Of a stretch of 64,000 bases of DNA, positions 87-63,549 are shown in pieces. Made by a program: the position numbers and the translations under genes. This stretch comes from Oscillatoria sp. SIO1A7 (GTDB lineage: Bacteria; Cyanobacteriota; Cyanobacteriia; Cyanobacteriales; Laspinemataceae), in NCBI GenBank assembly GCA_010672965.1, contig JAAHFN010000001.1, positions 330,118 through 394,117 on the forward strand. The letters are read 5' to 3'. The notes under the pieces were generated by a model. The model did no database searches. It was not told the DNA's origin and was given only the letters and a program-made list of their open reading frames with translations. The first letter of the stretch is position 1. Each line of letters begins with the position of its first letter.

Positions 87-1867
87 GCAACCCTTGCCTC
101 ATCTTTCATTGCTAAACGAGCTAGCCCTATGCAGAGCAAAGCATTGACTAGGAGGAAGGCACGGGCAAAAATGCCGCTGCCAAACCATACCAGAGTAGGC
201 GATGCGATCGCGCTAACAATCAAGCAGCTCGCTACCCCAATGCTAGTCCCTATAGCGAACCATTTCCATTGAGGATGTCCTAGGAACAGCACTATCAAAA
301 CAGCGGGAACGATGATGCTGGCAAAAATAGGATTGAGAGCGCTACTGCCGCTAATAGCAGTACCCAATTCCGGAATCGAGCTGCCCAGCACCCGGAAAGG
401 CGCTTGGGGCAAATCGAATATATAGAGACCGCGCAGGAAGAACAGGCCGCTACTACCGGCAACCAAACCAGCGCCCATACCCCAACTCCAGTTGAACGGG
501 AAGTATTTCCGCAAGAACCAGGCCAGCAGATAGGAGCCGATTACCATTAGCAGCTTGGGCAGCAGTGCATAGACGCCGCCATCAATCCAGAAGCGAGGAT
601 TCAGATAGCCATTGTCTCGCAACCAACGGAAGAAGTCGCGGAAGCTGATTTGACCGTTCCCCGCCATTTCAACAGCAGTTTTGGCATCCAGATAACCAGC
701 GCCATAGTAGTTTTGGGGGTCGTCTTGCTCAACCTTCCGAGCGCTTTGCAGCAGAATGGCGGTAACTTCATCGGGGTTTTTGACCCCAGTAGCGTTAATC
801 AGAGCGGCAACCCCAGCCACATGGGGCGATGCCATACTGGTGCCTTGCAAATAAGCAAAAATGGGTTGGCCGGTTTTGGGATCGATGGTATGTTGCAGAA
901 TGCCATCGGCTTCGTTTTGGGACTTATCACCACCCGGTGCGGAGATATCCACCCCAGCACCATAGTTGGTGTAGAATGCTGGTTTTCCAGATGGCCCAGT
1001 AGAAGATACGCCTATTACCCGAGCATAGCGAGCGGGATAGGAAGCACCATTCCGCTTCTCATTACCTGCTGCGGCGATAATCGTGACGCCTTTACTGTGG
1101 GCGTATTCGATTGCCTCTTTCATCGCAGCGCTTTCGCCACCACCACCGAGGCTCATGTTAATCACAGTGGCCCCATTGTCCGCAGCAAATTTGATGGCTT
1201 CGGCAATATCCGCCACGGTGCCGCCACCGCTAGCACTCAATACTTTTAAAGGCATGAGCTGGGCTTCGTAGGCGATGCCTGCTACCCCGAAGTTGTTATT
1301 GGTGCTTTGGGCAACGGTGCCAGCAACGTGGGTGCCATGCCCGTTATCATCGGCAGCGTTTTCGCGATCGTTCACGAAATCATAGCCTTTGACGAATTTG
1401 GTATCTTTTAAGTCGGGAACCGGACTGATGCCCGTGTCGATTACCGCCACCGTCGCGCCGCTACCTTTGGTTTCCTCCCAAGCCGCCTCTGCATTTATAG
1501 CTTTGAGGTTCCACTGCTTGCTATAGTCGGGGTCATTGGGCATCCCCAAGGCCCGATATTGATAGTCTGGCTCTATATACTCCGTATATTTGGAGAGTTC
1601 CGAGCGCTTGAGACTGTCGAGCATTTCCCGGTTGCCCCTAACAATGTAGAGATTGTCCGTAGTGGAAAATATACTGTTTAGGCGAGGGGTTACTTTGTAT
1701 GTTTCAGCTATTTCTCCGACCTGGTTCCGGATCTCGGCGGCTGGGATATCCTCCCGGAAGTCCAGGACAATAGAGTTATAGGTTCCTTGGCTAGCTAGGC
1801 CGTCGAAGCTGGCGATCGCCCAAATCAGTCCAACTACAAACAAACCTAGCAACAGTAGTTTTTTCAT
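83..1867 (-). CDS. Subtilisin-like S8 serine protease with C-terminal membrane segments
   Basis: The product (594 aa from the ATG at 1867) starts MKKLLLLG with a hydrophobic signal segment. A pro-region of about 100 residues follows, then a complete S8 catalytic domain: Asp in AVIDTGIS, His in GHGTHVAG, oxyanion Asn in AAAGNE and Ser in GTSMASPH. After the catalytic domain come about 200 residues with five or six hydrophobic segments, so the protease is predicted to be membrane-anchored with the catalytic part outside the cytoplasm. The frame extends 18 codons upstream to a TTG, but AGGAAAG lies 8 bases before the ATG at 1867, so I prefer that start. The gene overlaps the next small gene by four bases. 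Substrate is unknown; a role in envelope protein turnover is inference. A subtilase followed by a polytopic C-terminal domain is less usual than a simple secreted form. Confidence 0.9.
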   Translation of the reverse strand: MKKLLLLGLFVVGLIWAIASFDGLASQGTYNSIVLDFREDIPAAEIRNQVGEIAETYKVTPRLNSIFSTTDNLYIVRGNREMLDSLKRSELSKYTEYIEPDYQYRALGMPNDPDYSKQWNLKAINAEAAWEETKGSGATVAVIDTGISPVPDLKDTKFVKGYDFVNDRENAADDNGHGTHVAGTVAQSTNNNFGVAGIAYEAQLMPLKVLSASGGGTVADIAEAIKFAADNGATVINMSLGGGGESAAMKEAIEYAHSKGVTIIAAAGNEKRNGASYPARYARVIGVSSTGPSGKPAFYTNYGAGVDISAPGGDKSQNEADGILQHTIDPKTGQPIFAYLQGTSMASPHVAGVAALINATGVKNPDEVTAILLQSARKVEQDDPQNYYGAGYLDAKTAVEMAGNGQISFRDFFRWLRDNGYLNPRFWIDGGVYALLPKLLMVIGSYLLAWFLRKYFPFNWSWGMGAGLVAGSSGLFFLRGLYIFDLPQAPFRVLGSSIPELGTAISGSSALNPIFASIIVPAVLIVLFLGHPQWKWFAIGTSIGVASCLIVSAIASPTLVWFGSGIFARAFLLVNALLCIGLARLAMKDEARVA

Positions 1868-12502: not shown

Positions 12503-12694
12503 TAGACATGGGGCATGGGGCATTGGGCATGGGCATTGGGAGAGATCGGGAAGGGTGGGAGGGGTGGAAGGTGTGGGAAGGACTGCTGAAAATTTTTCCC
12601 ACACTCCCCACACTCCCCACACTCCCCACACTCCCCACACTCCCCACACTCCCCCAATGCCCCATGCCCAATGCCCCATGCCCAATGCCCAATT
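12503..12694. repeat. Nested heptamer/hexamer repeats forming a large dyad
   Basis: CATGGGG/CATTGGG units (12509-12540) are mirrored by CCCAATGCCCCATG units (12652-12692), with seven CACTCCCCA copies (about 12603-12652) between. The two arms can pair, giving a hairpin between the convergent cobS and ChW-repeat genes. It may terminate both. Confidence 0.8.
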
Positions 12695-19112: not shown

Positions 19113-19305
19113 AAGTTTGGTTTCTCAAACAATACCTTCGTCAAATAGGGGGCCATTCATAAGGTTTGCCGCGAATACTTGTGGTGCCAGACAATCTGTT
19201 GGCCGGGGATGGGGCAATGGCGATCGCTATCTGTAACATTAGGCTATACGACAGTGGAAAAGCTACAGAAGCTGCAGAAAATGCAAAAAATTTTTGCAGC
19301 CAATG

Positions 19306-19334
19306 TTGTTTTTCTCGAAAAACAGTGCTATGAT
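19306..19334 (+). promoter_or_regulatory. Candidate sigma-70 promoter without a gene
   Basis: TTGTTT, 17 bases, TATGAT. The predicted start near 19341 is followed by two hairpins (GCTTCCTTC/GAAGGAGC, and AAAGGGCCGC/GCGCGACCCTTT) and no open frame. It may drive a small RNA running towards, and antisense to, the structured RNA at 19475-19605. Confidence 0.4.
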
Positions 19335-19474
19335 ACTTTTAATGCTTCCTTCCATGAAGGAGCAAAAAAAAGGGCCGCTAAGCGCGACCCTTTGATATGT
19401 AAACGAGCGTCAACCCTAGTAAAGAGGCGTTTTCAATCAAGGAAAAAAAACTTCTCTCTTAACCGGACTGGCAC

Positions 19475-19605
19475 GGAGTAAGCCAATGGACTAGGGAAAG
19501 TCGGACATTGGCTTACTCCAAAGCTAGCCCGGGTGGGAAGATAGCCCACCCAAAAACCCTGCGGCGATCTCACAGCAGATCGCCGCAGGGGGTGGATTTC
19601 CTTGG
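19475..19605 (-). ncRNA. Structured RNA candidate, copy A
   Basis: Read on the minus strand from 19605, the segment begins CCAAGGAAATCCACCC and forms three strong stems. Stem 1 has 14 perfect pairs (19557-19570 with 19577-19590, loop of six). Stem 2 is GGGTGGG with CCCACCC (19531-19537 with 19545-19551). Stem 3 has 13 pairs (19475-19487 with 19507-19519). Blocks TGGGCTATCTTCCC and CACCCGGGCTAGCT are shared with copy B at 45328. No protein gene adjoins it. HEARO/IscB-associated omega-RNA is one possible family, but I could not confirm this from memory. Confidence 0.6.
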
Positions 19606-19870
19606 GAGAAATTCGTCTTTTTTTTAGCACTGGCAGGGAGACCGGGGGACCTTCGGGGCAGGGAGCAGGGGAGCAGGGGAGCAGGAGGAGGCGCCTACGA
19701 GGCCGCCTACGAGGTGTGGGAGGACTAGAAGTAATATCAAATCCGGTTACTCGTTTTCCTCGATCGGATACTCCACGCTGCTTTTGCTGCTCTGCTTATG
19801 CTTGTCTAGCTTGCCAGAAATGTCTGACTGCTTCCGAAAATACTAATTCTTCTATCTTATACATCTCCAT
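19606..19870. other. Gap between structured RNA and methyltransferase pseudogene
   Basis: Holds GGGGAGCAGGG tandem units (about 19660-19690), a GCCTACGAGG duplication, and an ATATCAAATCCGG element end at about 19735. No gene. Confidence 0.6.
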
Positions 19871-45053: not shown

Positions 45054-45327
45054 TACTGTTGCGATCGCCCCTACTGGATTGGTTTGGTCCTACGGTAAAC
45101 CCACCCCAGCCCCTCCCAGGAGGGGAAGCTTTTTTTAGGGCAATTAACCGGATTCGATCTAACTTTTTTAAGACGAACTATCAAAAATCAGTGAAATTGC
45201 AATAACAAACAGGTTTACAGTCAATAGGCTTAAACCACCGGACAGGCGGGACGCCCGTCCTACGAATTGGGTAATTTATTTCTTGGAATTCCCTAAAGCC
45301 AGCGATCGCTTTCTAACGTAAATTTTT

Positions 45328-45426
45328 CCAAAGGAAACCCACCCGCTGCCGCAATTCCGACTTTCGTCAGCGGGGGTCTTGGGGTGGGCTGTCTTCCCCC
45401 ACCCGGGCAAGCTATTGGAGTATGGC
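45328..45426 (+). ncRNA. Structured RNA candidate, copy B
   Basis: Begins CCAAAGGAAACCCACC, then stem 1 (CCGCTG 45343-45348 with CAGCGG 45368-45373), stem 2 (GGGGTGGG 45381-45388 with CCCCACCC 45397-45404), and CGGGCAAGCTATTGGAGTATGGC. Compared with copy A (19475-19605, minus), the linkers between stems are nearly identical, while stem 1 is a different sequence of similar position and still pairs. Downstream of 45426 the pairing differs (GGACTTC/GAAGTCC). No adjacent open frame is convincing. Confidence 0.55.
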
Positions 45427-45841
45427 AAAGGACTTCTTGCCCTAAATCCTCGAAGTCCAAAGGGCTACCCCTCTAGCAACCAGGGTTTTTGAGGGTGTTT
45501 TGACTGAAAAATACCTCCCTGCGAAAGGTTTACATGGTCGTTTGTGCGGGTCGCGGCTAGCCGCGATCCTTATTTTTGCCCCTTCTAAGGAGCTATAAAG
45601 ATAGTTTAGCAGGATTTGGCGAGAATTCCAACGTTGGAAGCAGAAATTTTCTGGAATTTCCGCATTTTCTGCACCCTCTGCATTTTTGTATAGCCTCATG
45701 TTACAGCAGGTCACTCGCCAAGCCTGTGGGTATGATTTGCGGGTCTGACTGCTTACTGCTATAGCCCAAGGCGATCGCAGTAAGCAGTCAGGCGAACGGT
45801 AGTCAGCTTTTAGCACAAGCCTTGCCGTTACTAGCAAGGAT

Positions 45842-62221: not shown

Positions 62222-62240
62222 GCGCGTGAATTTTTTCAAT

Positions 62241-62272
62241 AAAAAAGCCCTCCCGACGGGGAGGGCTTTTTA
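62241..62272 (+). terminator. Rho-independent terminator
   Basis: AAAAAGCCCTCCC pairs with GGGAGGGCTTTTT around a short loop, with T-run; works on both strands. Confidence 0.9.
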
Positions 62273-62278
62273 TTTAAT

Positions 62279-62373
62279 GGGGAATGGGGAATGGGGAATG
62301 GGGAAGAGTGAAAAGTGAATAGTGAATAGTGAATAGTGAATAGTAAGAAAACCAACTTTTCACTTTTCACTTT
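62279..62373. repeat. GGGGAAT and AGTGAAT/CTTTTCA tandem repeats
   Basis: Heptamer arrays (GGGGAAT; AGTGAAT; ACTTTTC) lie between the terminator and the end of the aminotransferase gene. Confidence 0.85.
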
Positions 62374-63549
62374 TCACTTTTCACTCAAAAACGCCCCTAT
62401 TTTCTCCACAGCCGCTGCCAAAATTTGGGGCTCGCGGACTAAGGCAAATCGCACATATCCTTCGCCAGCTTTACCAAAACCGGCACCGGGGGCTATAGCT
62501 ACGCCAGTGTTTAGCACTAGATTAGTACAGAATCCTATAGAATCTTGCTGCCAAGGTGGAGGCAATTTTGCCCAAACATACATGCTTGCTTCGGGGAGCG
62601 GAACTTGCCAACCGATGCGATTGAGCGCCGAGACCAAGGCATCCCGGCGCTTCCGAAAGGTTTCTACGGTGGATTTTACGCAGTCTTGGGAACCCGATAG
62701 AGCTGCGATCGCTCCATTAACAATCCCTCGATACTGATTAAAATCAATCGTTGCTTTTACTTGCCTCAGAGCCAGAATCAGCTCTGGATTGCCAATAGCA
62801 AAACCAACCCGGAAGCCGCCTAGATTATATGACTTGGACATAGAGAAAAACTCAATCGAGACAGTTTTCTCCCTGTCGGCCATCAGCACTGAGGGCGCAA
62901 CGCTCCTGTCCCCAAATACCAAGTCTGCGTAGGGAAAATCGTGAGCCAGCACCAAATCGTGACTCTGGCAAAACTGCACGGCTTTTTGGAAAAATGACAG
63001 GGGTGCAGTAGCGCTCGTTGGGTTATGAGGATAGCTCAACACCATCATCCGCGCTTGTTCTAGCACTGCGGATGGTATATCCTCAAACACGGGCAAAAAA
63101 CCATTTTCTGCCCGGAGCGGCATGGGATAAATCTGGCCTCCGGCCAAATAGACGCCACCCATATGGGAAGGGTAGCCCGGATCCATCAAAAGAGCAAAGT
63201 CACCCGGATTTAAAATAGCCAGGGGTAGATGAGCGGTGCCTTCTTGAGAACCAATTAGTTGCAGAACCTCTGTTTCTGGATCTACCGGAATGCCATATCT
63301 TTTCTCATACCAGTCGGCGGCGGTTTGCCGAAATTCCCTGGTGCCGTGAAAGAGCAGATAACCGTGGGTTTGGGTATCCTGCAAAGATTCGGCGATCGCT
63401 TCTATGACGTGGCTTGGAGAAGGCAAATCGGACGACCCTAGGAACAGATTTATCGAATCCAGCCCTTTTGCTTTTGCCTTTGCCAAGGCATTATCCATGT
63501 CGGCAAAGATATTAGAGCGCAGGGGTTCTAAACGTTGGGCAAATTGCAT
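62374..63549 (-). CDS. Class I/II PLP-dependent aminotransferase (LL-diaminopimelate aminotransferase-like)
   Basis: The 391-aa product is a fold-type I aminotransferase. The PLP Lys is in FSMSKSYNLGGFRVGF, the cofactor Asn/Asp region in LSYPHNPTSA and AHDFPYADLVF, and the C-terminal Arg in GYVRFALV. It resembles proteins often annotated as DapL, which make LL-diaminopimelate for lysine and peptidoglycan, but bacterial DapL assignment is not secure from sequence alone; aspartate or other aminotransferase activity is possible. It is convergent with the exported protein gene. Confidence 0.85.
   Translation of the reverse strand: MQFAQRLEPLRSNIFADMDNALAKAKAKGLDSINLFLGSSDLPSPSHVIEAIAESLQDTQTHGYLLFHGTREFRQTAADWYEKRYGIPVDPETEVLQLIGSQEGTAHLPLAILNPGDFALLMDPGYPSHMGGVYLAGGQIYPMPLRAENGFLPVFEDIPSAVLEQARMMVLSYPHNPTSATAPLSFFQKAVQFCQSHDLVLAHDFPYADLVFGDRSVAPSVLMADREKTVSIEFFSMSKSYNLGGFRVGFAIGNPELILALRQVKATIDFNQYRGIVNGAIAALSGSQDCVKSTVETFRKRRDALVSALNRIGWQVPLPEASMYVWAKLPPPWQQDSIGFCTNLVLNTGVAIAPGAGFGKAGEGYVRFALVREPQILAAAVEKIGAFLSEK

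Follow-up and report, generated by a model that had tools for sequence, protein, structure and literature searches.

Stand-alone, high-copy HEARO RNAs occur in filamentous cyanobacteria, and individual families of cyanobacterial non-coding RNA include Yfr. According to the sections of PMC3049150 drawn on here, small interspersed repeats are typically under 200 bp long, and the BOX elements of Streptococcus pneumoniae are dispersed intergenic copies, modular and RNA-folding, that occur in one lineage and whose mode of mobility is unclear. The same sections name Nezha as a cyanobacterial MITE. Non-coding RNA genes of cyanobacteria are free-standing and lie between a promoter and a terminator (PMC1242208, PMC2662882).

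The family described here has two copies, A and B, in the window, which is the whole stretch of 64,000 nucleotides that we analyzed from Oscillatoria sp. SIO1A7. The nearest kind of known element is a structured interspersed repeat such as pneumococcal BOX. Our family is modular, folds as RNA, is dispersed and is limited to one lineage. As far as the sections of PMC3049150 used here describe BOX, the two share many dispersed intergenic copies, a modular build with variable inserts, RNA folding, a lack of protein genes, confinement to a lineage and presumed mobilization in trans. They differ in host and are unrelated in sequence, and those sections do not describe BOX as laid out like a gene that ends in a terminator and is faced by a convergent promoter of its own. 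MITEs such as Nezha are likewise non-coding, high in copy number, dispersed and cyanobacterial, and the present family too is non-coding, with many dispersed copies in unrelated flanks. However, it is larger than a MITE and has the layout of an RNA gene, and terminal inverted repeats and target duplication were not found in the one pair examined. It resembles cyanobacterial non-coding RNA genes in lying between a promoter-like site and a terminator, but it has a far higher copy number, occurs in one genome only among those searched, and has no Rfam match. Like HEARO, it is a multi-stem non-coding RNA, of similar size, and HEARO is also said to occur without a protein gene; unlike HEARO, it has no match to that covariance model, and no IscB was found by an RRXRR search in which the controls were silent as well. 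What sets it apart from known structured repeats, besides its size, is that it is laid out like a gene, with a promoter-like site, a closed multi-branch fold, a terminator and a convergent promoter.

Copy number, extent and layout of the unit

A sequence-only reading of the window had described a structured RNA family of two copies, each about 100 nt long, with no adjacent protein gene. Copy A's three consecutive stems lie on the minus strand where that reading had placed them, both as read and as folded. Copy B (45328-45426, plus strand) is homologous to copy A, with 75% mean column identity over ~290 nt, in an alignment that extends well past the limits first given, and the single-stranded blocks described for the two copies are indeed kept between them. 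No HNH/IscB, TnpB or reverse-transcriptase gene adjoins either copy, as had been noted.

The number of copies and the length of the unit turned out to be much larger. A BLAST search with copy B found at least 40 copies in the host genome, and a 551-bp query again found at least 40, with matches of up to ~490 bp. Profile searches gave 21 copies in 1.24 Mb of whole contigs, taken irrespective of where copies lie on them, and, with pieces of further contigs added, 43 copies, 3 of them partial, in the 2.43 Mb sampled (~17.7 per Mb). This density leads to ~160 copies in the 9.08-Mb genome, an extrapolation from 27% of the genome that may be somewhat high because copies had already been seen on every contig sampled; the first three contigs alone give ~154 copies per genome. 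A lack of further homologues, the outcome that the sequence-only reading had named as speaking against it, is thus clearly not what we see: there are dozens more. Pairwise identity among copies has a median of 68% and ranges from 58 to 96%. The conserved unit spans ~430-500 bp, taking in a terminator hairpin and, past that hairpin, a further conserved block, and reaches ~1 kb in some pairs. Some copies stand as tandem pairs ~480-550 bp apart (G000:C13:9872 and 10415; C108:4407 and 4957; C96:30979 and 31460).

The family was absent from all 13 genomes of the same family that we searched, and among the genomes searched this one alone represents the host genus. With the core model, nothing scored above 26 bits in sampled genomes of the order (391) and of the class (390), compared with 166-177 bits for the genome's own copies. 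We took a 30-bp blast match in one genome of the order, and the R1 model matches of at most 26 bits, to be chance. A pattern scan of named genomes returned 27 scattered matches, about what chance would give for so short a pattern. Plasmids, phages and viral contigs gave no match in our searches. As far as tested, the family appears to be private to this lineage.

Read 5′ to 3′ on the strand of the sequence-only reading, the unit consists of up to eight elements. A minority of copies have an upstream block, AAAAAATAAGTGAAATTGCAATAACAGGTTTACAGTCAA...TAAAATGCGATCGCG, at a variable distance; besides copy B, it lies upstream of L005, L016, L074 and C172:82843. In about half of the copies there follows a promoter-like -10 site, TGCTATAAT or TTGTAGAAT, and then GCAAGGAGGT. 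Next comes a spacer that varies in length and consists of simple repeats, for example CTCCCCACACTTCCCACA; in many copies, L016, L024 and L065 among them, it separates the promoter-like site from the RNA core and so forms an insert within the outer helix P1. In the core, helix P2 (AATTTCTCCC/GGGAGAAGTT) encloses stems 1, 2 and 4, and stem 4 encloses stem 3. The fifth element, ACCTCCTTGC, is complementary to the second and forms P1 with it. A fast-evolving linker of 19-31 nt then leads to a terminator hairpin, GGGTCGCGGCTAGCCGTGGCCC (also given as GGGTCGCGG), with a T-run. The last element is a conserved block of ~150 nt whose other strand carries a promoter-like TTGnnn-17-TGnTAnnAT pointing back at the terminator, in antisense. 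Roughly half of the copies, including both A and B, have no recognizable promoter and P1 5′ strand within 450 bp. The features of the two copies in the window are as follows.

Copy A
19140..19632, minus strand: whole conserved unit (blastn extent; nhmmer extent 19207-19633)
19604..19613, minus strand: 5′ strand of the enclosing helix P2, AATTTCTCCC (sequence; helix 1 of the tested structure)
19557..19590, minus strand: stem 1 hairpin, 14 bp, 19590-19577/19570-19557 (sequence, fold)
19531..19551, minus strand: stem 2 hairpin, GGGTGGG-CTATCTT-CCCACCC, 7 bp, 19551-19545/19537-19531 (sequence, fold, structure test)
19475..19519, minus strand: stem 3 hairpin, GGAGTAAGCCAATG/CATTGGCTTACTCC, 14 bp in the fold, 19519-19506/19488-19475 (sequence, fold, structure test)
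19464..19531, minus strand: stem 4 (CGGGCT.GC / GC.AGTCCG), enclosing stem 3 (sequence, fold, structure test)
19449..19458, minus strand: P2 3′ strand, GAGAGAAGTT (sequence, structure test)
19418..19429, minus strand: position of the P1 3′ strand, CGCCTCTTTACT; a matching upstream strand was not found for copy A
19394..19413, minus strand: fast-evolving linker before the terminator (copy-pair comparisons)
19364..19390, minus strand: predicted intrinsic terminator hairpin, GGGTCGCGCTTAGCGGCCC, and T-run (sequence; helix 9 of the tested structure)
19306..19334, plus strand: conserved promoter-like site past the terminator, pointing into the unit, TTGTTT-17-TATGAT with extended TGC (sequence, conservation)

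Copy B
45171..45262, plus strand: upstream conserved block, common to several copies at variable distance
45314..45725, plus strand: whole conserved unit (nhmmer extent; blastn 45319-45650)
45328..45489, plus strand: core RNA, stems 1-4
45513..45522, plus strand: P1 3′ strand, ACCTCCCTGC
45530..45547, plus strand: fast-evolving linker (copy-pair comparisons)
45548..45576, plus strand: predicted intrinsic terminator, GGGTCGCGGCTAGCCGCGATCC, and T-run (sequence; helix 9 of the tested structure)

In L005, a close relative of copy B, the upstream sequence GCAGGGAGGT pairs with the same P1 3′ sequence, ACCTCCCTGC. We found no coding gene in any frame of the unit: the longest open frames equal those of shuffled sequence (median, 77 versus 74 codons), and no reading frame is conserved. 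Nor is there a recurrent neighbor gene, since the flanking open reading frames differ when compared across copies.

Folding and strand of the RNA

The minus-strand fold of copy A (19375-19640) has a predicted energy of -112.9 kcal/mol, with a z of -7.4 against shuffles; that of copy B is weaker (z = -2.4). Stem 1, as had been remarked, differs in sequence between the copies and still pairs. It is variable between subfamilies, and one of its pairs is U-G or U-A in nearly all copies. RNAalifold returned only 8 pairs from a gappy alignment of the core, and the basis of the fold is therefore a structure that we drew for a single copy and then tested; a gap-reduced long alignment gave many pairs. 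Across 49 copies, 86.8% of cells paired in the drawn structure, and slid versions of it fell to 35-57%. Changes on both sides were found at 20 pairs, versus 10.0 ± 2.2 in shuffles (0 of 500), a result that counts as support rather than proof since the shuffles take no account of relatedness and the structure was derived from a single member. With this shuffle control, the covarying pairs whose absence the sequence-only reading had named as speaking against it are seen.

The outer helix shows the same kind of change, with P1 strands altered together between copies (GCAAGGAGGT/ACCTCCTTGC, GCAGGGAGGT/ACCTCCCTGC and TAAGGAGGT/ACCTCCTTA). Swapping the P1 partners between copies made the pairing worse (p = 0.0005, with no control for relatedness). 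Over the consensus pairs of the long RNAalifold alignment, there are 336 G-U and 178 A-C combinations on the strand of the sequence-only reading, and the terminator alone has 87 versus 4. This excess of G-U over A-C suggests that the RNA is read from that strand.

Among 22 disjoint closest pairs of copies, we counted 0.05-0.06 substitutions per site in stems and motifs; the stem-1 loop and the 5′ flank had 0.14-0.16, and the linker had 0.25. Between closest copies, loops change 3-4 times faster than stems and motifs, so the folded parts are under constraint. Taken together, these comparisons support the view that each unit carries a multi-branched RNA gene ending in a predicted intrinsic terminator, and they bear out the earlier claim that the hairpins are not due to chance but belong to a family of structured RNAs.

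Mobility and rival explanations

Two copies on one contig, 69 kb apart, have in common a block of 1,012 bp with 98.7% identity, and the DNA on both sides of it is unrelated. In one of these locations, inverted-repeat arms of 131 bp (-411..-280 and 733..863) flank the block exactly; the block thus forms the center of a palindrome and looks like an insertion. The palindrome lies at G000:C95 near 68557; its arms have 63 and 70 matches in the 2.43 Mb, and one intact palindrome was seen. In this pair, the only one examined, we found no terminal inverted repeats at the block ends and no direct repeat that would mark a target-site duplication at either copy. Left ends differ between pairs, so these comparisons reveal no classical transposon border. 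An examination of the flanking open reading frames found no autonomous partner or mobilizing enzyme. The neighbors of one insertion checked in relatives were not syntenic, and the output of a scan for empty insertion sites was dominated by other repeats. From the shared block and its changed surroundings, we consider movement of the unit likely.

The family is probably a non-autonomous mobile repeat, specific to this lineage and high in copy number, whose units of ~0.5-1 kb each carry a gene for a structured non-coding RNA. The RNA would be transcribed from the promoter-like site beside P1, with read-through taking over in copies that lack this site, and would stop at the intrinsic terminator. 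The convergent promoter may give an antisense RNA, which would dampen the sense RNA. An enzyme encoded elsewhere would move the DNA unit in trans, and the fold and terminator may have been retained for two effects, insulating the host against the insert and preserving the mobility of the unit.

Part of this picture could hold for a pure DNA repeat, whose hairpins act as DNA (transposase or recombination sites, or terminators) and which makes no functional RNA. Dispersal in unrelated surroundings agrees with such a repeat, as do the conserved blocks that run on past the terminator. However, DNA hairpins would not be expected to favor G-U over A-C on one strand, and the compensatory changes and the terminator plus promoter-like arrangement also argue for an RNA; we regard a purely DNA-level role as unlikely. 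The guess of the sequence-only reading, a stand-alone HEARO (IscB omega-RNA), drew on background knowledge of such high-copy RNAs in filamentous cyanobacteria. Since a search of the entire genome, with every copy in it, gave no match to the HEARO covariance model (RF02033) at E <= 1, and the two segments gave none either, this identity is highly improbable. The RRXRR domain of IscB had no match in the genome, in a search where control genomes were equally silent. No Rfam 15 family scored above its gathering threshold on the copies. The family is new to Rfam, which was the fallback that the same reading had offered.

A different role would be that of regulatory RNAs beneficial to the host, in which a conserved protein-binding scaffold carries a variable linker that pairs with targets, different for each copy. 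The core is conserved, and the linker, here taken as the 20-28 nt between P1 and the terminator, is both the fastest-evolving part and less paired than the core (0.51 versus 0.34). In 75 related pairs it is 65% identical (54% at random), compared with 91% for its left neighbor and 86% for its right, and it can be swapped en bloc, as with CTTGTCCGTGT and CCTATCAGTTC in copies otherwise 99%/95% identical. With one pair per copy, it evolves faster than the conserved blocks (p = 1e-6), but its lead over the stem-1 loop (p = 0.21) and over the 5′ flank (p = 0.05) is not clear, so relaxed constraint explains its divergence, and a hypervariable guide is improbable. The linker is also T-rich (49%), and no targets were found; it is only slightly more complementary than expected to the DNA upstream of its own copy (p = 0.002-0.004). 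We therefore think such a regulatory role doubtful. More specific still, and very unlikely, is a genomic library of ~160 RNAs in which one structured scaffold bears, ahead of the terminator, a single-stranded segment diversified from copy to copy, with which a scaffold-binding protein addresses different targets.

If the family is indeed a mobile repeat with an RNA gene, ~160 gene-like copies with a terminator, a convergent promoter and a fold kept at ~68% identity would make an unusual natural set. Bacteria are known to have other interspersed repeats that fold as RNA, and this set would let one ask what such repeats keep their RNA structure for: a benefit to the host, their own spread, or insulation. 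One genome would also supply a 160-member alignment for structure work.

Other features of the window

Genes in the window include what we take by eye to be PetH and phosphoribulokinase. Two long, near-perfect inverted repeats lie at 12504-12690 and 62239-62401, and the former consists of short units rich in G, for example GGGCATT and GTGTGGGGA. Both gave sub-threshold matches to eukaryotic miRNA models in cmscan; they are probably hairpin repeats of this genome.
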